NCBI GenBank assembly: GCA_900618425.1
Contig: UZAN01039886.1
Span: 38,269 to 102,268, forward strand
Origin: Echinostoma caproni
Taxonomy: Eukaryota > Platyhelminthes > Trematoda > Plagiorchiida > Echinostomatidae
Direction: 5' to 3'
Length of the DNA: 64,000 nucleotides
In this document: positions 19,793 to 62,265 of the stretch, one piece after another
Layout: the number at the start of each line of letters is the position of its first letter
Numbering within the stretch: position 1 is the first letter of the stretch
Translations under genes and position numbers: made by a program
Notes under the pieces: generated by a model
Seen by the model: only the letters and a program-made list of their open reading frames with translations
Database searches by the model: none
Told to the model about the DNA's origin: nothing

Positions 19793-19990
19793 TTGAATTT
19801 CGTTGTGTAAAGAACAAACGAAAAGTGAACTGAAAAGCCAGGAAGCACCGGATAGCTGTTTCAACTTGGTTGGATCTCACCAGCAATCTGAATCCATCGA
19901 CCCGACCGGGGATCGAACCCGGAACCTCACGGGCAGAACGCAAGCGTACTATTCACTGGGCCATCGGGCAGCTAACCGGACTGTTTCTTT
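19793..19990 (-). mobile_element. tRNA-derived SINE, head type A, with decayed hammerhead
   Basis: Read on the minus strand it starts with a tRNA-like head of about 75 bases. The A box is GATGGCCCAGTGAATAGT and the B box is GGTTCGATCCC. A hammerhead-derived module follows, then the family tail CTTCCTGGCTTTTCAGTTCAC. The same head and tail occur at 35.8 and 36.2 kb. RNA polymerase III would be the expected transcriptase, and mobility would depend on another element's reverse transcriptase. Confidence 0.85.
19845..19889 (-). ncRNA. Hammerhead ribozyme module, inactive copy
   Basis: The module has the 45-base length shared with the intact copies. The core box reads CTGGTGA instead of CTGATGA, helix II is weakened (GATC...GTT) and helix I has a mismatch. 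GAAA and the ATC triplet are in place. Self-cleavage is not expected. Confidence 0.7.
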
Positions 19991-20687
19991 TTAAATTATC
20001 TTTATACACTATGTACTTGCTTTTGCTTTGTGGAGAGAAGGTTATTCTACCGTACAAAATGAGAGCACGTATTCTCAACCCAATCAATAAAGGGCACATC
20101 ACTGACTGAAAACAGCGAACTGTGCAAAGTCTTCCGTTGATGCAAACGATGCTGTTTTTCCTTAATCTTAATTGGCCTGTGTGTTTTTGGACAAGTCATA
20201 TAACGAAACTGATATAATAAGCGGAGTGACGGGCACGATCGATCGATAGTTGAAAGGAGTGAAGAGGCGGGAAATGAACCGGCGTTCATCTCACATTTTC
20301 ACGCGAGGAAAAAAACCGCAACATGAATTGTCATTGACTGTCTAACTTAACTACATATATGATTTTAATGTTCACCTAATGATTTGATTATCTGGTAGGG
20401 TAAAAGATAACAAAATGACCACTTAGGTCTTTGGTCACAATTTCGTCATATTACCAGTTACCTTGTGCATGTTTTACAAGATAAAGAAGAAAGTTGCGAT
20501 ACAATCTACCACTGAAGAATTTTCCAGTTGGNACTATTGGATTAACATAGGAGCAAATAATTCAGCAGAAATTGTGAAATAATTAATAACCACATGCAAA
20601 CGATCCCAGTCGAAATAGCTTATAACACGCAGTAGCCAGTCTTGATTGATGAAAAAGACATTTACATACTTTTGAACAAAAATTCAG

Positions 20688-30339: not shown

Positions 30340-33030
30340 TGTGTGCATTGCGAGTTTGGCAGCGATCAGTGAAGTTCGCTTCACTGTATTTCGCTGTACC
30401 ATTACGACGATAATGATTGTGCTAGTATTAACCTTCAAGATACTGGAAGTTTACCGACAAGAATCTTCTTTGGAAATCAAATATAAAACGGTCTGAGAAA
30501 CCAACGTCAGATCACTAAATTGACATGCCAAGAACACAGGTTTGCACAATGTATCCTGGATCATTTCGCTGCATTTGTACAGGTGCATAATGCAGTCTAT
30601 GTGATCAATAGTATAGGGTCAGTAAATAACAGAATCGTAGGTGGAGAAAGTTTGCAGTCAAAATTACTCACTAAGGCAACGCAAGAGTAATAAGCCATTT
30701 ACCCTGTTTACACATTTTGCGACAGCAATTTTGAATGGCTAGTTCTTCGTGTTGTAGAGGATTTTGAAGGCGTCGCGCAGCATGACACAGTGTGTTGTGT
30801 GAACAGAGTTTCCTACGGGGCATTGGTGATCTCATACTTCCGAAGTTCCCAACCATTGTTCTCTAAAACCAGACCGAGATGTGCTCGGTTACTCGGTGAT
30901 GCAGTTGTCTCTCCGTTCTGCCGATGTCGATGGGCGAGCATCCACACCATATTATGATCACATAGACTGCAGTATGCACCTGTACAGATGCAGCGATGTT
31001 TGCAATTCACGAAATAGTATCATGAATGGGCTTCGATGGGCACGATCTTGCGCCTCAGATTACCTACAATTAGATAAGCAACTGTCTTGGGTGGTCGCCG
31101 GTGTCAATATCCTACAGTTCAGTGTTCTGCGGAAGGACTCTATCGCTAAGCTTAGCATGTTGAGGTGATTTAATTCGTTTTAAATAAAAGAAGCGGTTTG
31201 TTGTCCACCATTCATTCTTAATATTTTGCAAGATTAAAAGTGAACTGATGCTAAGCTGGACCAGGGCTTGACGAAAGCAGTAAAAGTTGATCATGACAGA
31301 GGAAGGTGATAAATGGAACCCTTTGGAGCACGTAAGTCCACATTGGTTTTGACCTCGCCGTTGCTTGTTCACAGTTCCATGCATTAGCTAATGTCTCTTT
31401 TCGGATTGTTTTCATAATCGTTTTCACTGTCCATTGACGATATGAGAACTGCAAATATAATCTGTAGTGCACCAGTTGAAAAAGTAGGCCTCCTATGATT
31501 TATTGCCAGCCGCACAGTAGGATGATTAGGCCAATCTGACAGCGAGGCTAACGCACGTGGGTAAAAGTGAGCTTTACCATGAACACCAGTAAAAGTTGGT
31601 GCTGCCGCAATATTTTACCATTTCGCAAATTTAGTGGAAATACAAAAGGGAGAGATTACATACTGAATTTTGTCTTAAACGGAGCAAATGACGCGTGAAC
31701 TGGGCAGCTGCTCTGTACACCGCCAAGTTCGTTAAATAATCTAAAGTAAGCAGCTGATTAACTTAAAACTCTTCATTGGTGAAGTTTTGAGTGCCACATA
31801 GCTGTCTAGTTGAGCTTCCCACTGCTTTTGGTCAATTCTGTTTTTTAAATTTGTGCAGCCCCGTTCAATGGCAGCTTAACCTGAAAATGGTAGTGAATAT
31901 CTATTCCAAAATGATTCGAGTCTATTCTGTGGGTTAATCACATCTTGGCAGCATTTACATTTATTCATAATTTGTTTTTGAGTACAATACCACAAGCTTT
32001 TCCGGGTTGGTGCGAACGATTCAAAGGGATTCGTATCCAGAGCGTTCGGTTAACCAGAACGAGGCAGTGGGTGAAGTCTACGGCTCAATGAAAGGGTTGT
32101 TGTCCATTCAAATAGGATATTATGCAGTAAAGATACAATTCACATACCCAAAATGAAAATTTACCCGAATGTCTGATCGATTTTTCTAACCTAAACGTCC
32201 CTGAATTGGTTTGTTAGAGAATTAAAAAAAACCAAGATTTTCGCTTCAGTGAAAAGCATCTCTACCATGAGACGGTAGTGATTACAGCTTCCATTGCAGA
32301 AATTATAAGAGACTCACCCCTCGGAAAAGAATTTTCTTTGGAGTGCAGCTTTTTCTGTTATTTTTTTAAGGGGGGGGGCAGGGACGATTGAAATCTTCAA
32401 GAGTTGGTTACTTTCTTCAAGAAAGGATGCTGCATTTGACGATCAGATATTCAGTGTTTATTGTATTGCAATTTATTAAAGTATGTGGAGAGTTGACTAC
32501 AGCAGAAATGGGATAAATTCGAGGTCCCCGAAAGTGCTATCCACAAATGTAAGAACGTTTGCTGTCCAACCTCGGACCTCACCAGAGAGCTATCTCAATG
32601 AAGTAACAAGATCGGAGATTTTCATGTGCCTAACGTATTATCAAAATTCCTCAGTGTGTCACAATTATGAACAAACCTGTTCTGTTTTCACCGTCGCTAG
32701 GATTGTTCTCACAGGCTAGACACAAACAGCCCTTATTTCTTCAACCGCTCTGTGATCTCCACGGATTTGATTCCTTGTTATTTGCCAGTCATTTTATTCA
32801 TATTAATGTTTATGCTATGGCCTCAGATGTGAGAACAGTGAATTGAGGATATAAGGGGAGGATAACACTTTACAAATGTCGTTTATTAATTATTATTTAA
32901 AGTAACCTGCGAACTACGCAGTCGTGCCTCGAACGCGATTCATGGTGAATCTTATCAATTCAGTATTCGTTTATCCCTGTATACTGGGCTAACCGCATAG
33001 CCAGTTTAGATGTTTTGTTAACTGACAGTT
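30340..33030. other. No gene recognised
   Basis: Frames of 60-95 codons at 30.8-31.4 kb and 32.48 kb carry no motif. A 9-G run lies near 32371. Confidence 0.45.
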
Positions 33031-33035
33031 CGAAA

Positions 33036-34020
33036 GAGCACTGGTCCCACGCTTGCTATCAGCGTTCGTTCGGCTACACGCGGAGTACGCTGTTCAAGTA
33101 TGGAATTCATGGTTGAACCGCGAACGTGTACTCGCCAAGCGATTCCGAGAACACCTCCTTCCGAACAATCTTCTATGCCAGGAGCAGCATGGGTTCCGTC
33201 CGCAGCGATCTTGCTTCTCGAATTTGTTACTTGCTTGGGAGCAGTGGGCGTCCGCCAAGGTCGCTGGCCACGAAACGGACGTCATCTTCATTGACTTCAG
33301 CAAGGCTTTCGACAAGGTGCCACACGGACAGTTGTTGGAGAAGCTTAAGGCTCACGGTGTTGCAGACCCACTACAACCCTGGATCGAGGATTTCCTCGTC
33401 AAAAAGCTTTTCGCCTCCCATGTTAGCCCTCGGCTTGAAAACGGTGGACCCGCTGTATACCCCTGCACGCTTTCCGAAATGGGCAACTTGGAACGGGTAC
33501 AACGCTACGTCACTCGTCTAGTCGCGGGACTTCGTGGGATCAGCTATTAAGATCGGCTTCAGGCTTTTGAACTTTATCCGGTTGGCTGCAGGAGACTCCG
33601 CGGGGATTGGATCTATCTGTGGAAGGTTCTTCGTGGTGATCTGGGACCGGAACTACATGCTATGTTTCCACTGCATGACTGCAACCGGACGCGGGGCCAC
33701 AGGCTCACCCTCCGGAAGCTGGAGTCGACGGGGCTTCCTTTGGTTTATCGCCCTTCGCGGAGGGCGACTTCTCCCTGGAATTCACTCCCGTCGGATATGG
33801 TGGAGGAGCAGAAGGAGGCACGATTCAAACGACGTCTCGACGAGCATTTAGTGAGACGCTGGCAACGTGCAGAATACTGAGCGGGTTGCTATCGGTACCG
33901 GCGGTGACGAGGCTCATACAGGGCGTGGCTCCTCTGCCTTCGACATATGAAGAAGAACATCCGCAAAGGCCGACAAAAAGTTGGTAAAAGATCTGTATAA
34001 CAATAAATACTACGAAAGAC
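33036..34020 (+). mobile_element. CR1-type non-LTR retrotransposon, internally deleted and rearranged
   Basis: One frame of 165 codons (33053-33550) has CR1-type reverse transcriptase motifs: EHLLPNNLLCQEQHGFRPQR and FIDFSKAFDKVPHGQLLEKL. It stops at WIEDFLV, before the YADD box. The sequence then jumps to the C-terminal domain: MGNLERVQRYVTRLVAGLRG, and after a stop and a frameshift RGHRLTLRKLESTGLPLVYR, SPWNSLPSDMVEEQ and FKRRLDEHLVRR, ending at 33880. The segment SAFVRLHAEYAVQVWNSWL, which normally lies just before ERVQR, sits instead in front of the whole reverse transcriptase (33053-33115). The catalytic box is gone. Confidence 0.88.
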
Positions 34021-34444: not shown

Positions 34445-35740
34445 TGACGCATGTAACACGAATACTGTGAGATTTTACGCTCATTCTTTTCAATCACTTA
34501 CATAAAACAACGTGCTATCTGGGCAATATTGTCTTAGCAACCGTATTAAACAAACATAAAGGTGAAGGGAGTTCGTTCAACACAACTTCAAGGTCATGGT
34601 GGACGAAGTAATAAATTCGTTGCACACAGAACCGGCGGAGTTGTGAAATCTGATTAGCACTGTTTTGCCTTTGGATTGCGATTACATAACAATGGGTTCA
34701 AACATAAAATCAGGTCAACTGGTTGCGATCACTTGTCCAGTAGTTGCTAATACTGGAATTGTTTCACGGTAGCTGATGGGTGTATTATGTAACATCAACT
34801 TTGTAAGTCAGCCACTTATATTCTGACATATTCTGACATTCATTGCGATAAAATCATCGAGTTATTATGTCAATCTAATTATGAATCTGACTCGAGATGA
34901 ATTGATATGTCACAGGAAAAAAGAACAGGATCGATAACTGCGTTTTCCAGGGACCTAGAGTAATACTTCTGGTTGGATGGGAAACTGCGCTACTGGGAAG
35001 GCTCGGTATACCGCCAAACTGAATATAAGATCCACTTGTTTGGTTATACGGTCCCTTTAGAAGGCCAATTCAATGTGGACAACTTTTCTTGGTTTTATGG
35101 GAATGGGGTAACCGTTGGGTTTCTGTCCCCTATGAACACCGATTAACATTTCATATGAGTATATGGTGAATAATACGTTATTCCTTTAGGAGAACAGTCA
35201 TTAATTTGGGGGAGAGTCAAGTTGAGTTTTCACTAATCCTTATTTGTATGACACCACTGGATTTACAGATGGCAAAATGCACCTATTGAACACTCTAGAT
35301 TGTCTTCGCATGGATGGAGAATTGATTGGTCCCCTCTGATCGTTCAATGAGGTCGAAGTCTAAAACAATCAAAACAGTTATTTTTCTCCTCCTTATACGA
35401 AACAGAATGATACGGACGGATATAAGACATTAGCCATCATTAAAGAACGCAAAGTTACCGAAGATTAAAACATCATTTACAGATAGTTCGTGTAAAATCC
35501 CTCTGATCTTGTCGAAATATATTTAAAACATCCTCCAATCATCCTGCATTCATGTTATACGGTGAGTTTTATCTGCACTTGATAGGTCGTCTTTCTGGTG
35601 CATCAGTTTCGTCCAACGTTAGTGATCCTTACACTCCATGATGCTTTCATCCCGATTGTTTGAGTTGTGTGTGTGTATGAGTGTGAAAAACATCAACCAT
35701 TTTCGCCCAAACACAAACAGGTATTGTAAAATGAAATAGA
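34445..35740. other. No gene recognised
   Basis: A+T-rich sequence without identifiable motifs. Confidence 0.45.
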
Positions 35741-35746
35741 TATGAG

Positions 35747-36000
35747 GTTTCAAGTGAGTAATGGAGGATTTGGTTCAATTTCAACGGTGAATTCGTCATG
35801 TATATAGCAAATGAAGCGTGAAATGAAAAGCTAGGAAGCACTGGACAGCTGTTTCGACCTAGCTGGGTCTCATCAGCAGTGCGAATCCATCGATCCAACT
35901 GGGGATCGAACCGGGGACCTCACAGGTAGAACGTATGCTACCCACTTGACCACGGGGCAGCCGATCAGACCGTTTTTCATTTTCTATTTACATGATATAG
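35747..36000 (-). mobile_element. tRNA-derived SINE, type A, with intact hammerhead
   Basis: Minus-strand order: 5' lead-in ATGAAAAACGGTCTGAT, then the tRNA-like head (35890-35965; A box GTGGTCAAGTGGGTAG, B box GGTTCGATCCC), the hammerhead (35838-35882), the tail CTTCCTAGCTTTTCATTTCACGC, TATATACATGACGAATTC, and an end near CCAAATCCTCCATTACTCAC. It forms the left arm of a large inverted repeat with the copy at 36153-36365. No coding capacity is visible. Confidence 0.9.
35838..35882 (-). ncRNA. Type I hammerhead ribozyme, intact core
   Basis: Minus-strand modules, 45 bases in all: helix I GCACTG, core CTGATGA, helix II GACC / CAGCTA / GGTC, GAAA, the short helix III CAGCTG with the GTC triplet overlapping its last G, then helix I' CAGTGC. 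All invariant core bases of the family are present. The predicted cut lies after GTC, between 35844 and 35843. The very short palindromic helix III is the form seen in animal SINE and PLE hammerheads, which often work best as dimers. Confidence 0.88.
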
Positions 36001-36107
36001 CACAACCCATCTTTGCGAGCTTGTTGCGGGTCACAGATCCTGCTCATCTCAGCACTAACCTCCGGATTATGACTCGGATGGAAACATTCACAACCTGACT
36101 ACTTATT

Positions 36108-36372
36108 TCAAGTGAGTAATGGAGGATTTGGTTTAGTTTTAAAGGTTGCGCCATATTGTGTAAATAAAAAATGAAAAACGATCTGACCAGCTGTCCCGTG
36201 GCCAAGTGGGTAGCATACGTTCTACCTGTGAGGTCCCGGGTTCGATCCCCGGTTGGGTCAATGGATTCGCACTGCTAATGAGACCCAACTAGGTCGAAAC
36301 AGCTGTCCAGTGCTTCCTAGCTTTTCAGTTCACGCTTCATTTGCTATATACATGACGAATTCACCTTTGAGA
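36108..36372 (+). mobile_element. tRNA-derived SINE, type A, preceded by an opposite-strand tail fragment
   Basis: 36108-36165 repeats the end of the minus-strand SINE family (GTGAGTAATGGAGGATTTGG). From about 36165 a plus-strand copy follows: lead-in ATGAAAAACGATCTGACC, A box GTGGCCAAGTGGGTAG, B box GGTTCGATCCCC, hammerhead module, and the family tail to 36365. The copy is roughly 90% identical to its inverted partner. Confidence 0.88.
36269..36313 (+). ncRNA. Hammerhead ribozyme module, one core change
   Basis: The module has the same 45-base layout as the copy at 35838-35882, with helix I GCACTG/CAGTGC and helix II GACC/GGTC fully paired. The core reads CTAATGA in place of CTGATGA. That changes the invariant G5, so this copy should be inactive. 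Confidence 0.8.
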
Positions 36373-36379
36373 TATGAGG

Positions 36380-36900
36380 TTCTTTAGTAAAGAGTTTAGC
36401 ATTTTGCACTGGACTCAGCTTGATCACCTGCACTTATGCACTACTTTATTCCCGGTCTTTAGTCTCACACAGGCATAACGGTCCTGGAGTATTTGGTGGT
36501 CAACGCCTCCACCTCAGTCTATCCTCAGTTAATTTGATAACACTGATTGTAGGGTAAATCAGCTGCATTACAACTGACCATCTTTCGTCGCAGAATACTG
36601 ACGGTAAAGGATAATTAGATTTGGTCAATTCATTCCAGCCGAGTCTGTGTAAACCAAGTCCTTTTTGTTTGGTTTTAACAAAACTGCTATAGAGATCACC
36701 TGGGTACTTTTTTGTCTGTGATAGCATCGCGCACACCTTTATTTTCCAAATATATATGTTCAGTCACTTTGTTTTTCTACCTCTGGTTAGCAAAAGTCGC
36801 CCATCCTGAATGGGGATTGATTGTCTAATTTCAAACTAATCAGCAGTCAAGATGTGGGTATCCGTCAGCTGATTGCTTAAACATCTCGTGTACGCATGTG
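36380..36900. other. No gene recognised
   Basis: A minus-strand frame at 36500-36736 has splice-like edges but no recognised domain. Confidence 0.4.
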
Positions 36901-51720: not shown

Positions 51721-52339
51721 TCCCCTATTAATAGAACTAAGCACATATGTTTAAGCCCGCAGTCCTGGAGACCTTTCAACACTAACGCCATTCTTAAATT
51801 TTCCTCGTCTAATACTCAATCCGAACGCTCTCGTCCCACAGTTCAGTTCCTCTGCGCTTGAACTAACAGAGTGCGCTGGTCCGACTGGTTTGTAATCTAT
51901 AGTATTAGTGTTTTAGGCGAACCTCTTCAATTTATGAATAGATTAAAAGATGTACGTTGGACGTTTTCCCTTTGTAGTAATTGTAGTAATAGTAGTAGTA
52001 GTACGCAATAAACGCGGAATACGAATCACGCAATACGAATCACTGATTAGTAGTCACGGGCGTCACGTAAGCACTGGATCACCCTGGTACTTTCACGCAC
52101 TATCCCACGTAACCAAGACGCGAGGAAAAGGCCACAGGACTATTAGTTCGTTTATTGAAAGAAATTAGAGGGATTTAATAATATGTACAAAACAATTTAG
52201 GGCATACAGCTCGGATTAGCCTATTCAATCGTTCAGAGGCATCAGGCACCCTTGATGTTCTTGGATGTGGGTTTCACTCCGTGGGGGATCGTTAATTCCC
52301 CACAATTTCATGCATTTACATTCGATAGAATTGTTTGTG

Positions 52340-52510
52340 ATAACCAACAAAGAGCACTGGACAGCTGTTTCGTCCTGTTTGGGACTCGTCAGCAGTGCGT
52401 ACTTTTTGTGTCCCTGTCAGGACCCGAACTGCGAACATTCGGGTTGGGACTTCAAACCCAGCCCCCGAGATACACGGTCGACGGTTATCACTTAGTGCGA
52501 ATGGCTTAAT
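52340..52510 (-). mobile_element. tRNA-derived SINE, head type B, with intact hammerhead
   Basis: The head differs from type A: CACTAAGTGATAACCG as A-box region and CTGGGTTTGAAGTCCC as B box. It ends in the same hammerhead architecture (52354-52398) and the AGTGCT joint. The classic tail is cut short after about ten bases. Confidence 0.75.
52354..52398 (-). ncRNA. Type I hammerhead ribozyme, intact core
   Basis: Minus-strand modules: GCACTG, CTGACGA, GTCC / CAAACA / GGAC, GAAA, CAGCTG, GTC and CAGTGC (the G of GTC is shared with helix III). Position 7 (C here, T elsewhere) is the one variable base of the core. Helix II with its CAAAYA loop closely resembles the schistosome hammerhead as I remember it. 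The predicted cut lies between 52360 and 52359. Confidence 0.88.
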
Positions 52511-52829
52511 CAATTTAGAGTATCTAGCTTGGATTGGCCCATTCGATCGTTCAGATCTCATTGGTCATCCAGGCCTCTGCCAATCCCGTGCTAGTATTTC
52601 TTGCGTTGCTCAGCTTCTGTCTGGGCCGAACGGTTTCTGATTGGCTGGTGCAATTGACCTATGGTAGGTAGTCCAGAAGCTAAGACGCGCACGCACTTTG
52701 CTGACGTCACCCGGGAAGCTGGATTGCTCACAGTTGTCCGAAAACTGTAACGTGCCACTCCAGGGTATAAGTCGTCTCGTGGGCCAGGATCACCACACCC
52801 TTCACTGATGCACACTATTTGGGAATCTT

Positions 52830-55009: not shown

Positions 55010-57325
55010 TTATTTAGTACTCGCAATAAGCAGTTGCGGAACCTCGTTATCCTGAGGCGCATAAAAAGCACAAATGGAGCATTCATTGGTTCACTGGAAA
55101 AACGAAATGGAATGAATATGATGACTATTCAATGCTTATTGGCGTAAATGGATCGCCTACTCAGAATTGATGCCCATGCAAGTATGGTATTCTTGGTCGC
55201 TATTGATAGTCACAAGGTTGAATCGTACGACACTATTTCGCCATACCGGATGATCATCATGGATTTTGCGACTCTGTTGTGCACTGAAAGCATCGAACGT
55301 AGTCCCCGAAACATGGCCTGCTGCAATTCACCTTTTTGCAAAGATTTCTAACCATTTTGCCTCCCTATTTATCCGTGCCCATGTAGGAGCACCTGATATT
55401 TAAAATTTTGGTTTATTTTTTGTGACTAAAACAATTGATATATACACACATGATGAAGCTATTCAAAACCTTTGTTCGTGTTCACGATCTACTTGCGAAA
55501 TTCATCTAACATTTCAGCCTAACTCTTTTTTCCGAAAGAATCCATTTAGGCGACCTCGTAAAGTAAAATGGCCGTTCAAAGAAAGTGTGTATTCGTGGGA
55601 GACTTTTGCTCATCACAGGCTGATCGAACACATGGGACCGAATCGAGCTGACAGGCCCAAAATGCAATTCATCGGTTGTTATTAGTCAATGCAATTAACT
55701 GATCGTGACTATATTTCCAGAAAGACTGATAACGGGACAACTAGTTCATGAGGATGAATAGTTGTTGATGAGGTCCGGATCAATCAATCAATCAATTGAG
55801 GACTCAAGTGATTACGCCTATCCATTCAGCTAATCTAATGTCACGAGAGGTTGAGCTACGGGATCAACTGTTCGTGGGAGAGGGGGATCTAATTCGGTAA
55901 TCGGTATTCCATGTGTCCACGATGGTCCGTGGTTGTACCAGTGGATAATGCACTTGAGCATTAATCACATCGATTTCGAGTGTCACCCGATGCAAAATGT
56001 TTCTTCGCTCTCTCTCCCTCTCTCTCTCTCAGGTGTTTGCTCGTCGTCCGTTAAACGTTCCGCACATTTGATCTAAGTCAGCTGATTAACAAACCGCATC
56101 CATTACGAACAAACCGACTTCTATCAGAAGGGGTTGGTTATAACGGCCGGTGTCGAACAGCCAATCTTAAGACAAATGAAGTAAACTGATCACATGTAAA
56201 CAAATCCGGATGATAGTTTAGCAGGGAAACATCATGAATAAAAAAGAATTTTGCATCAGCAGTGTTATGCATCTATATTAGTCAAGCATAAAAAGCAGAT
56301 ACGATGGTGGTGGTGGTGGTGGTGGTGAAAATATGTACACAGGACTGCATTGTTACAGAAACTTTTGTGAACTGTTCCTTAAAACACGGTCCAGCATGTG
56401 CGACGCATGGAGATGTAGAATAACAATCATTATGCACTGTCTATGTTGCGTTTCAAAGTGTATGCAAGAACGGAGAGAGTGATACCAAAGTGGGAACTGC
56501 AGTAATGAATACTTTTCACATGGTAAAATTACTTATCATGTTCACTGCTAGACTGTTCCGGTCTTTTCGGTTTTCAGACGAGGTCCCTGTTTCCGCTGTT
56601 TCATGCTCCTGGCACTTGTACTTGCGGAGCAGTATGCATTGATTACAAGAGAACAGATCGGGAGCACTATCGAGACCTGAAAAAACACTGATGAAACCAA
56701 ATCCATTACAGGTACGATGACGGGGGTTATTGGGTGTCATCAAAGGTACAATCAGATGCGCCCATAGGGTTTCACATAATTGCCATCTTTGCTAGTCAAG
56801 ATTCATACATCTCTTTACTGGTATAGTTTTGGGCATTTTGACACGGAAAATCTCGGAAGTCATTCTTCTCTTCCTCACCGAGCAGAAGTGGACGTTGATA
56901 ACCCTTCACTTTTCTAATTAGACGGAATACAAACATGCAAGAGGTTTTCGCCACAACAAGAAAACGACTCGGTTTTTAACGCCCTAAACAGTGTTGGTAA
57001 CCATGGGTTAAATTTGTGTGAAGCACAGACAACCGATCATGAGCGAGGTGCAAGATGCACGGGAAGTGTTACAGTAGATAAATGGCAAGACTGGGAGAAC
57101 TACGTCAATTTGCATCATCAGTTTGAGCATGGACAGGACAGAGTTTCCGAAAAAAAGAAAATTATTATTACGTGATGAACAGCAGACAAGTTTGACCCTG
57201 TAGTCGAGAAGATCGACTGTGATGGAAACCAGCAACCTACCCCCTCCCGGACTTGGAGTTATGAAGCTATGCTAGAGGAGGCGTGATATTGAACTGAACG
57301 GTAGCAAAGATGCTTACCACCAAAG
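55010..57325. other. No gene recognised; CT and GGT microsatellites
   Basis: Frames at 55148-55351 and 55422-55685 (+) have ordinary residue mixes (for example KNPFRRPRKVKWPFKESVYS) but no recognised domain and no clear splice partners. (CT)n lies at 56007-56030, (GGT)n at 56304-56327, and (ATCA)n near 55783-55798. Confidence 0.4.
56304..56327. repeat. (GGT)n microsatellite
   Basis: Eight perfect GGT units. Confidence 0.95.
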
Positions 57326-57329
57326 TTAC

Positions 57330-57412
57330 GTCGCGGTGGCAGGGTTCGGACCCCGGACCATAGAGTTCAAAGCAAGTCGGAGACAGTGACTAAACCACTG
57401 TACCACCACCAC
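57330..57412 (-). repeat. tRNA-derived SINE, type D
   Basis: On the minus strand GGTACAGTGGTTTAGTCACT, then CTATGGTCCGGGGTCCGAAC and CCTGCCACCGCG. A and B boxes are well kept. It is the clearest of the three type D heads. No ribozyme follows. Confidence 0.65.
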
Positions 57413-60489: not shown

Positions 60490-61146
60490 AGTCAGTGTGT
60501 TGTCTTTGCATTATCTGCAAAACAAAATGATGAGGAAATATTTTAGCTTAATTTGGTTACTGTTCCGTGCGATCGTTGATAAACAGCTATCTCCAGATAC
60601 AGTACAAAAAGAAGAGGATTTCCTGAGGAGAACACTGCTAAACAACGATTATCCAGAATGGTTTATGGCCATTCGTAATGGACCATTCCCAAGAAGTAAC
60701 CCGGCCCAAAACGTTGACAAGCAGGTTTCAGAGGTGACTACATTTACAATGATGTACTCTAAAAGTTGGAGAGAACTCCACACCGTACACTCCCAGCTAC
60801 TCAACTCAGATTTACACCTCTACTCATGCAATTGATCTGGACAAACGTTAACATGCCTGGCATACCGGTTCTGTCTCACACTCTGTATACCAGTTCACCT
60901 GCAGTTGCAGTGACGCAAGCATGGACAGAACAAGCTGTCAGCTATCACACAGACGGTCGAAAACATTCCAAAGTAATTGGTGAAATCAATGACTCAATCG
61001 ATGATAAGGCGATCACAAGAAATACTATGTCGTCTGATACAAAACGTCTCATGGTTGGAGGCTTCCGATTGGAGTTAAGAGATAGTCAATTGTCTCCCTT
61101 CGTTGCTGTCGGGCCAAAACTGACTATCACTGAAGACGAAACCTGA
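60490..61146 (+). mobile_element. Penelope-like element, 3' part with GIY-YIG domain, inactive
   Basis: The frame from 60497 reads LSPDTVQKEED, FLRRTLLNNDYPEWF, which is the helical connector after the reverse transcriptase of PLEs. After frame changes, YQFTCSCSDASMDRT starts at 60888, corresponding to the YxFTCSCGDxYIGRT core of the PLE GIY-YIG endonuclease. QLSHRRSKTF follows, then ITRNTM and a basic stretch. Two catalytic-region residues are changed (Y/I and G to S/M and D), and frameshifts separate the blocks, so it is dead. In the family this single-strand endonuclease starts target-primed reverse transcription. Ribozyme-bearing repeats begin only 10-40 bases downstream. Confidence 0.8.
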
Positions 61147-61154
61147 ACATATGA

Positions 61155-61345
61155 ATTCATTGTGTAAATGAGGCGTGAGCTGAAAAGCACTGGACAGTTG
61201 TTTCAACCTTGTTGGATCTCATCAGCAGTGTGAATCAATCGAACCAGGCCGAAACAACTGTCCACTGCTTCCCAGCCCACGCCTCATTTACACGACGAAT
61301 TCCTTATATGAACAAATCAAATCCTCCATTGATCTCACAAAACAT
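61155..61345. mobile_element. Palindromic pair of SINE 3' halves
   Basis: 61155-61240 is the tail half of the SINE family on the minus strand, including a hammerhead. 61245-61345 is the tail half on the plus strand, starting inside the hammerhead at GGCCGAAACAACTGTC and running to AAATCCTCCATTGATCTCAC. The arms 61161-61208 and 61247-61294 can pair into a long hairpin. Neither half keeps a tRNA-like head. Confidence 0.8.
61187..61231 (-). ncRNA. Hammerhead ribozyme module, core intact, weak helix II
   Basis: Minus-strand modules: helix I ACACTG/CAGTGC (five pairs), core CTGATGA, helix II GATC...GGTT with two G-U pairs, GAAA, CAACTG and GTC. All core bases are present, but helices II and III are weak, so activity is doubtful. 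Confidence 0.7.
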
Positions 61346-61369
61346 GAATTAGTAATTCGCTTGTCCTGG

Positions 61370-61560
61370 TATGAGCTGGTTGGCACAATGGTAACACGTG
61401 CCTTCCATGCGATGGGTTCGGAGTTCAAAGCCAGGACGGGAAGGTGATAATGCACTACTGACGAGCTCTAATAAGAGCGAAACTCGAGTCTAGTGCTTCC
61501 GAGCGTACGGTTGGCCGGGTGAACTGAATATTGTGTGTGAAGTATTGTATTTGTAACTTG
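61370..61560 (+). mobile_element. tRNA-derived SINE, head type C, with intact hammerhead
   Basis: The head reads AGCTGGTTGGCACAATGGTA (A box), then CCTTCCATGCGATGGG, then GTTCGGAGTTCAAAGCC (B box, decayed). The hammerhead at 61452-61496 follows, then CTTCCGAGCG and a tail unlike types A and B (TGTGTGTGAAGTATTGTATT). Confidence 0.75.
61452..61496 (+). ncRNA. Type I hammerhead ribozyme, intact core with fully different stems
   Basis: Modules: helix I GCACTA (61452-61457), core CTGACGA, helix II GCTC / TAATAA / GAGC (61465-61478), GAAA (61479-61482), CTCGAG and GTC ending at 61490, helix I' TAGTGC (61491-61496). Every helix differs from the type A copies, yet every pair is kept, including the terminal A-T of helix I. 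The predicted cut lies after 61490. Confidence 0.9.
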
Positions 61561-62265
61561 TGTAAGCATATATGCTCACATTTCAGTTAAAAGAACGTGA
61601 AGGTGAAGTTCGGAGGATAGTCAGTTCAAGTTATTTACTGAAGTGTTGCTAATTCGATTACATCATCCGACTTTATGTGTACAAACGTTTTTCATATAAT
61701 CAATCCACCTATCGTGATGTTGACTTTCTATTTCCCTATGCAGTAATTCTTTGGTTGCGTGTACACGTCTATTCACTGCTATTGATCAACCCAATCTGCT
61801 ATTTATGTTTGTTTGTTTTACATCAGCGATTGAGGATATGAAACAAAATGTTAATATCTAGCGATATTTGTTTTTTTTTCGGTATTGATGAAATATCTGA
61901 TGTTTGTTAAAACGTGCCAACATCATCCCTAACGGAACCAGAACCAAAACATTCTCGATTGTTTGGTTCCCCTTTGACCGGTTCATAGAAAAATAGAGAA
62001 CTTTCAATTAATCAACACACCCTAGTGTAGGTTGTGAATGTAGAGGAAAGATGAATATTTGATTAGCGCAGTATGCCGCTTAACGTCACCCCCGGGAGTC
62101 GGTAAAAAAATTTTCTTTTACAAACAGTTTCCCGCAAAGGCTTTCTCCATGGGCAATTTCAACCGTGGGAATCTTGATAAAAACGCGACTGCCCTTCCAT
62201 ATAAAAATCCGCTCAAACAACTGACTGGCATTCACTGAGCAACTACATGAAGGAGATCACTAGTT
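61560..62265. other. No gene recognised
   Basis: A+T-rich sequence with no motif. Frames are short. Confidence 0.45.

Follow-up and report, generated by a model that had tools for sequence, protein, structure and literature searches.

What mobilizes the ribozyme-bearing SINEs of a fluke genome, and why do their copies so often stand in inverted pairs, is the question raised by a stretch of 64,000 nucleotides of Echinostoma caproni DNA (contig UZAN01039886.1), which is hereafter called the window. Hammerhead ribozymes in the SINEs of flukes have been known for a long time, and those of the window are ordinary representatives of this class. The more unusual part of the locus, absent from a preliminary description of the same DNA, is the arrangement of the copies as head-to-head twins in which one tail is extended, and this arrangement is the main finding of the present analysis.

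Hammerhead motifs of the window

Three hammerheads with intact cores had been reported at 35838 and 52354 of the minus strand and at 61452 of the plus strand. All three are present with the sequences reported, including those quoted for helices I, II and III, and their cores, pairing and Rfam scores agree. Specifically, each of them retains CUGANGA, GAAA and GUC and has 14 of 14 Watson-Crick pairs; on the basis of the core, the open stem I and the curated score, they are type I hammerhead motifs. The gathering score of the Rfam family RF00163 is 34 bits, and among the window matches those at 52354, 35838, 36269 and 61452 lie above it. The number of sites given in the preliminary description, seven, has to be lowered to six when at least 10 pairs (G-U counted) and at most two core mismatches are demanded:

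61452..61496, plus strand: hammerhead of family C; helix II GCTC/GAGC, helix III ACTCGAGT; RF00163, 35.3 bits, E 4.1e-5
52354..52398, minus strand: hammerhead of family B; helix II GTCC/GGAC, helix III ACAGCTGT; RF00163, 58.1 bits, E 1.2e-12
35838..35882, minus strand: hammerhead of the minus arm of a twin, family A; helix II GACC/GGTC, helix III ACAGCTGT; RF00163, 47.8 bits
36269..36313, plus strand: hammerhead of the plus arm of the same twin; mutated core, CUAAUGA; RF00163, 43.7 bits
61187..61231: family A hammerhead inside the minus arm of the 61-kb twin; RF00163, 30.0 bits, below the gathering score
19845..19889: degraded hammerhead, the sixth site, within a single family A SINE

In the copy at 61452-61496 the predicted cleavage point falls after position 61490. 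Family C is the poorest fit to the Rfam models: three of its copies outside the window were scored as Hammerhead_HH9 with 31.7-35.8 bits, under the gathering score of 52 of that model.

A loose pattern of the core finds 7 matches in the window where 2.29 are expected, a weak excess, as 3 of 100 shuffles also reach 7. In the whole assembly around the window (426.5 Mb, 12,689 contigs), the same pattern matches 26,995 times and its reversed counterpart 7,583 times; for the CTGATGA form with exact spacing the numbers are 2,822 and, in the control, 5. An origin of the motifs by chance is ruled out by the Rfam scores together with this last genome-wide comparison.

Three SINE families with different heads

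The view that the hammerheads lie within SINE-like repeats bearing tRNA-like heads is borne out. In 267,560 bases (stretches L001-L030 plus the window), copies with three different heads are found, here called families A, B and C, and a consensus was built for each of them from 23, 10 and 8 copies, respectively. Sequences resembling the A and B boxes of tRNA genes are recognized by eye in all three consensus heads; ARAGORN calls two family A heads as tRNA and finds no tRNA in 17 other loci. The window contains the following elements besides the twins:

19794..20013, minus strand: single family A SINE with a degraded hammerhead; head called as tRNA-Gln by ARAGORN
52190..52555, minus strand: family B SINE; 48-nt direct repeats at its two ends
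61091..61629, plus strand: family C SINE (tRNA-like head, hammerhead, tail) by BLAST to the family C consensus, outer limits approximate

The two repeat copies of the family B element (52508-52555 and 52190-52237) are 81% identical, with a period of 318. The family C element is interrupted by a family A twin, so that its matched parts are 61091-61149 and 61340-61629. Just 3' of it, at 61645-61895, stands a palindromic repeat that is also found at C14. As a separate observation, in L051 and other family A copies the 3' end of the head, GTTGGGTC, is exactly complementary to GACCCAAC, the helix II strand with its loop, which follows after a few bases; the two could possibly pair in a fold that hides the hammerhead core.

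Covariation between and within families

The three families differ in all three helices. Helix II is GACC/GGTC in family A, GTCC/GGAC in family B and GCTC/GAGC in family C; helix III is CAGCTG in families A and B and CTCGAG in family C; the helix I pair adjacent to the core is G-C in families A and B and A-T in family C. Every one of these between-family differences is paired, that is, compensated. Within families, double changes at paired positions number 8 versus 14.2 expected (65 copies, 319 kb), with observed and expected values of 5 and 7.8 in family A, 1 and 3.3 in family B, and 2 and 3.1 in family C.

The covariation claimed in the preliminary description therefore holds for the comparison between families and fails inside them, and the conclusion that covariation among the copies demonstrates selection is not supported, since double changes are no commoner than independent mutation gives. 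In other words, the covariation is real between the founders of the three families, constraint is visible only there, and copies decay once inserted. Conservation of the core is of no use as evidence in this sample, because the loci were picked by an exact core match. Moreover, the hammerheads at 35838 and 36269 are arms of one insertion and therefore not independent; close-set hammerhead copies can be a single insertion, and should not be counted as independent covariation. Covariation as the main point of the locus, with selection on cleavage in every copy, is a highly improbable reading: it can appeal to the paired changes in helices I, II and III between families, but it is opposed by the lack of an excess of double changes inside them and by the position of the copy starts, as only 1 of 107 lies within 6 nt of the cleavage site.

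Head-to-head twin insertions

Two twins of family A are found in the window. The first is a single insertion of 620 bp, bounded by an exact target-site duplication, and the second lies inside the family C element described above:

35738..35749, plus strand: left target-site duplication, AGATATGAGGTT, 12 bp
35750..36369, no single strand: family A head-to-head twin, one 620-bp insertion; 616-column inverted alignment, 79.5%
35750..35781, minus strand: 32-nt 3' extension of the minus arm only; arm ends compared by eye
36370..36381, plus strand: right target-site duplication, AGATATGAGGTT, 12 bp, exact
61152..61330, no single strand: family A head-to-head twin inside the family C element; minus arm 61152-61246, plus arm 61242-61330

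The 61-kb twin is bracketed by a 7-nt direct repeat, ATGAATT, which is weak support on its own, and a twin at C36 has a flanking duplication of 13 bp. In general, a flanking repeat of at least 7 nt accompanies 8 of 37 twins, compared with 5.9% in shuffled flanks; most twins have no clear duplication, as expected for old copies.

The prevalence of this arrangement was surveyed in 41 non-overlapping stretches (319,271 bases), all of which except the window were chosen by motif hits. These contain 107 SINE copies (55 of family A, 25 of family B and 27 of family C). Neighbors of the same family less than 300 nt apart are head-to-head in 37 cases, tail-to-tail in 1 and on the same strand in 7 (binomial P 2.8e-10); four of the 37 are alternative pairings of composites already counted, and their removal leaves 33 versus 1. 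Head-to-head pairs, with both tails outward, take up 70 of the 107 copies. In addition, 100 listed places of the 2,822 CTGATGA matches were read by eye and gave 6 pairs less than 300 nt apart, all of them head-to-head and five of them on contigs outside the 41 stretches.

The divergence of the two arms of a pair is correlated (Pearson r 0.48, p 0.003), and the junction points vary from pair to pair, with few exceptions. Accordingly, the arms of a twin were inserted together, and most twins arose de novo. This bears on the possibility that the twins are inherited from a small number of foldback master elements, which had the inverted-repeat structure beforehand and were multiplied intact. A recurrent family A spacer (15 hits) and a recurrent, partly self-complementary 5' region of family C would fit such masters, but nearly every twin has a junction of its own and single full-length copies exist, which makes this explanation rather improbable.

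A comparably doubtful alternative is self-priming, in which hairpins of the first cDNA make it fold back and prime its own copying. Some junctions do fall in self-complementary stretches, where the arms overlap by 30 nt at L006, 49 nt at L007 and 31 nt at L013, and for Penelope elements self-priming has been inferred from palindromes at inverted junctions, as discussed in PMC3846280. A copy made in this way is however difficult to reconcile with arms that are unlike in their 3' ends and have few private changes in common. Private differences are shared by the arms of a pair, and by unpaired copies, at frequencies of 0.024 and 0.018 in family A, 0.041 and 0.017 in family B, and 0.042 and 0.023 in family C; we count this slight excess against mobilization by Penelope, although sharing is still rare (2-4% versus about 2% of positions). 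In the window twin, the inverted homology ends with the shorter arm and does not continue into the flank, and no snap-back into the flank was seen in that twin.

Of 30 inverted pairs found in the sampled DNA, nine belong to none of the families A, B and C, and six of these nine are palindromic. Consequently, twinning needs no hammerhead of this kind and may be a property of the machinery, a point that we count against the link of the ribozyme SINEs to Penelope proposed below. A different repeat, with a tRNA-like stretch recognized by eye, forms a palindromic pair at 57171-57412 of the window and at L002 7264-7820, and it has matches on both strands in 7 of the 41 stretches. Elsewhere in the fetched DNA, a 620-aa open frame on the minus strand (L016 3141-5000) resembles by eye a rhodopsin-type receptor; its sole match, among the 7,995 scored candidates sharing most words with it, is an unnamed protein at 57%.

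One long tail and one short tail

Arms were scored as long or short according to their reach into the tail, with limits set by eye for each family. Twelve of the 37 pairs were excluded (9 with arms ending short of the tail or at the edge of the locus, 3 nested alternatives), and among the 25 that remained there are 21 with exactly one long arm, 1 in which both arms are long and 3 in which neither is (within-family permutation P 0.002). The difference in length between the arms is 32 nt in the window twin of family A, about 40 nt in most pairs of family C and about 70-120 nt in family B, as measured from BLAST ends.

The asymmetry has to be weighed against the ordinary explanation, namely that LINEs mobilize these hammerhead SINEs and, through some side route of the LINE reaction, for instance twin priming or template switching, also produce the twins. 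SINEs with tRNA-like heads are mostly moved by LINEs, and frames that resemble by eye a LINE reverse transcriptase occur in the window and in the fetched DNA; both facts speak for this explanation. One such open frame occupies 33053-33550 of the window. Twin priming inverts the 5' part of one RNA, so that the outer end of the inverted arm is not a tail and the arms do not overlap, whereas many of the arms described here overlap and both reach the tail. Moreover, to our knowledge the one-long, one-short pattern of tails seen in 21 of 25 pairs has no counterpart among LINEs. In the human genome, finally, close inverted pairs of Alu are rarer than direct ones, according to PMC3215922. On balance, we regard mobilization by LINEs as possible but unlikely.

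The structure of the copies also gives indications about the template. A direct copy of the tail precedes 4 of 15 family A spacer hits, several of which begin inside the spacer and are uninformative, and in family B the tail runs directly into the head in 2 of 8 cases; the unit period is about 363 in family A and 318 in family B (window 52555-52190). Since some copies begin with a second direct tail, the template probably comprised more than one unit, which suggests a tandem or circular RNA as proposed for retrozymes. A cleaved RNA as template, with copies starting at the cleavage site, was rejected, given the single start within 6 nt among the 107 copies. Cleavage, it seems, does not set the ends of the inserted DNA, and the Penelope reaction is described as proceeding in vitro without it (PMC11167929).

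A probable link to Penelope-like elements

PMC3846280 reports Penelope copies in an inverted, head-to-head arrangement, in which junctions are palindromic, duplications are present and one of the inverted copies may carry a tail. A Penelope protein characterized in PMC11167929 cleaves the two DNA strands and extends each of them, and it has two adjacent internal start sites, which account for the optional tail of 30-40 bp. Two of these hallmarks recur in the SINEs, that is, the head-to-head copies (33 versus 1) and the 3' extension of one arm (21 of 25). Penelopes have already been suggested as movers of animal retrozymes (PMC7761336, PMC8969392). Taken together, the twins and their single extended tails point to mobilization or integration of these hammerhead SINEs by a Penelope-type machinery, a reading to which we assign a probability of roughly 0.6. 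The extension in family B, longer than the 30-40 bp quoted for Penelope, counts against it.

As to the machinery, L061 contains a Penelope frame with a GIY-YIG domain, the nearest named flatworm relatives of which are proteins of Trichobilharzia regenti (41%) and T. szidati (34%). At least 144 matches to this frame, some of them pieces of one copy, are found in the genome, a lower bound obtained by scoring 142 of 3,844 candidates. The predicted L061 protein and its matches point to a putative autonomous Penelope in this genome.

Inverted arms, one of them with a 24-nt extension, and 12-bp duplications are also seen in a young insertion at C2:1893-2271. A frame with a GIY-YIG-like stretch lies at C39, and the insertion matches, at 99% identity over 295 nt, the sequence from the end of this frame into its 3' flank. 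The C39 frame is Penelope-like by a weak match to L061 (27% over 128 aa, E 5e-9), which we count against the link, and it had no Pfam hit. Judged from its sequence, the C2 insertion, derived from what appears to be a second Penelope-like family, has the same geometry as the SINE twin of the window. Comparison of L061 and L062 with the consensus sequences of families A, B and C for a shared tail gave one 22-nt match (E 0.63), and the C2/C39 3' region had no match to any copy of the three families; in the few Penelope-like 3' regions compared, no tail shared with the SINEs was thus found, and this counts against the link.

On both strands, positions 30505-30996 of the window have matches to the Penelope-like 3' region of the young insertion at C2, so that this segment is probably a Penelope twin that has decayed. 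A fourth hammerhead-like motif, with a helix II like GCGG/CCGC and an odd spacing of helix III, occurs at L002 3130-3174 (minus strand) and at L014 9551 (plus strand), where it adjoins an inverted repeat. It was considered as a Penelope ribozyme and set aside, as no such frame was recognized by eye near the two copies.

Palindromic helix III and a possible dimeric form

In all three families, helix III is formed by an 8-nt palindrome that has no loop; a third palindrome, CGCGCG, stands at this place in the Rfam RF00163 consensus. Within one molecule, helices I and II pair and helix III allows at most 2 of 4 pairs. Since helix III is palindromic and has no loop, the active form may be a dimer. 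For the family A consensus and the family B 45-mer, the best predicted fold of the monomer is not a hammerhead (about -15 versus -9 kcal/mol), and the best predicted fold of the dimer is exactly the double hammerhead (-34.3 kcal/mol). The 45-mer of family C is predicted to form a double hammerhead with one additional helix II pair. The window copy at 35838 is an exception, for which a non-hammerhead dimer fold is predicted as better, and it is counted against the dimeric form. A study by Lunse in 2017 reportedly deals with dimeric hammerheads as well. Palindromic stems III and dimers occur in other systems, as mentioned in PMC3088659, PMC6155905 and PMC7229834; for dimeric hammerheads, see Forster 1988 as cited in PMC6155905 and the legend to Fig. 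S8 of PMC3088659.

Each family combines a head of its own with a compensated helix II and a helix III palindrome, and twins account for most of the sampled copies. A mechanism that could connect these features with Penelope-type integration would begin with transcription of the SINE by RNA polymerase III. Two hammerheads would then pair through the 8-nt palindrome to give the active double hammerhead. A Penelope-like protein would cut the two strands of the target and prime on both, and would thereby integrate the RNA with one tail on each strand; reverse transcription would begin at either of two internal sites, and the two cDNAs would join at their 5'-truncated ends. Such a course of events would yield head-to-head arms, an extension on one arm only and a target-site duplication around the pair.

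A more speculative extension, which we hold to be quite unlikely, is that the palindromic hammerhead acts as a device for pairing templates, with dimerization, no less than cleavage, as the reason for which the ribozyme is kept. The partners joined as a double hammerhead, either a pair of SINE RNAs or two units within a single tandem RNA, would be loaded in this paired state on the Penelope-type protein, which would cut and prime both target strands, so that the two cDNAs meet head-to-head. If true, template pairing would explain why a palindromic helix III is kept in three differently headed families while the copies examined have no footprint of cleavage.

Significance and comparison with known systems

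The twin structure bears on what moves ribozyme-bearing SINEs and retrozymes in animals. Reviews propose Penelope-like elements as candidate movers on the basis of shared hammerheads and co-occurrence (PMC7761336, PMC8969392), and no description of head-to-head hammerhead SINEs, or of structural evidence for their mobilization by Penelope, was found in the literature searched. The two hallmarks allow the link to be tested, both through counts in the genome of any fluke and through a single in vitro reaction. In addition, inverted twins are natural sources of hairpins; of 16 hammerhead-like small-RNA clusters in Schistosoma haematobium, 9 were assigned a hairpin origin (PMC5993326).

The nearest comparable elements are the SMalpha and Sjalpha hammerhead SINEs of schistosomes (Ferbeyre 1998 and Laha 2000, cited in PMC2770079 and PMC8490949). 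They have in common with the present SINEs a tRNA-derived head, a minimal hammerhead of type I in which stem III is very short, and a high copy number, with about 38,500 blastn candidates given for S. mansoni in PMC2770079 and about 19,400 genome matches of the hammerhead pattern above the reversed control here. Unlike them, three heads and sets of helices are found here in one genome, together with head-to-head twins with one long tail, of which the literature searched gave no such description.

The metazoan non-LTR retrozymes treated in PMC7229834 and PMC7761336 likewise possess a type I hammerhead, units of about 300 nt and copies of more than one unit. They are seemingly promoterless, as stated in PMC7761336, whereas the SINEs described here have heads like those of RNA polymerase III genes, and their copies are dispersed and often twinned rather than arranged in long tandem arrays.

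Penelope-like elements, as presented in PMC3846280, PMC11167929 and PMC8969392, share with the SINEs the inverted head-to-head copies, the optional tail on one arm, the duplication, the partial direct repeat and a hammerhead. In contrast to them, the SINEs have no protein-coding frame, a longer hammerhead and a tRNA-like head, and no sequence is common to the SINEs and the Penelope-like copies examined. With dimeric hammerheads, finally, the SINEs share a palindromic stem III that is fully paired only in the dimer, and they differ from them in that two different palindromes occur among the SINE families of one genome.
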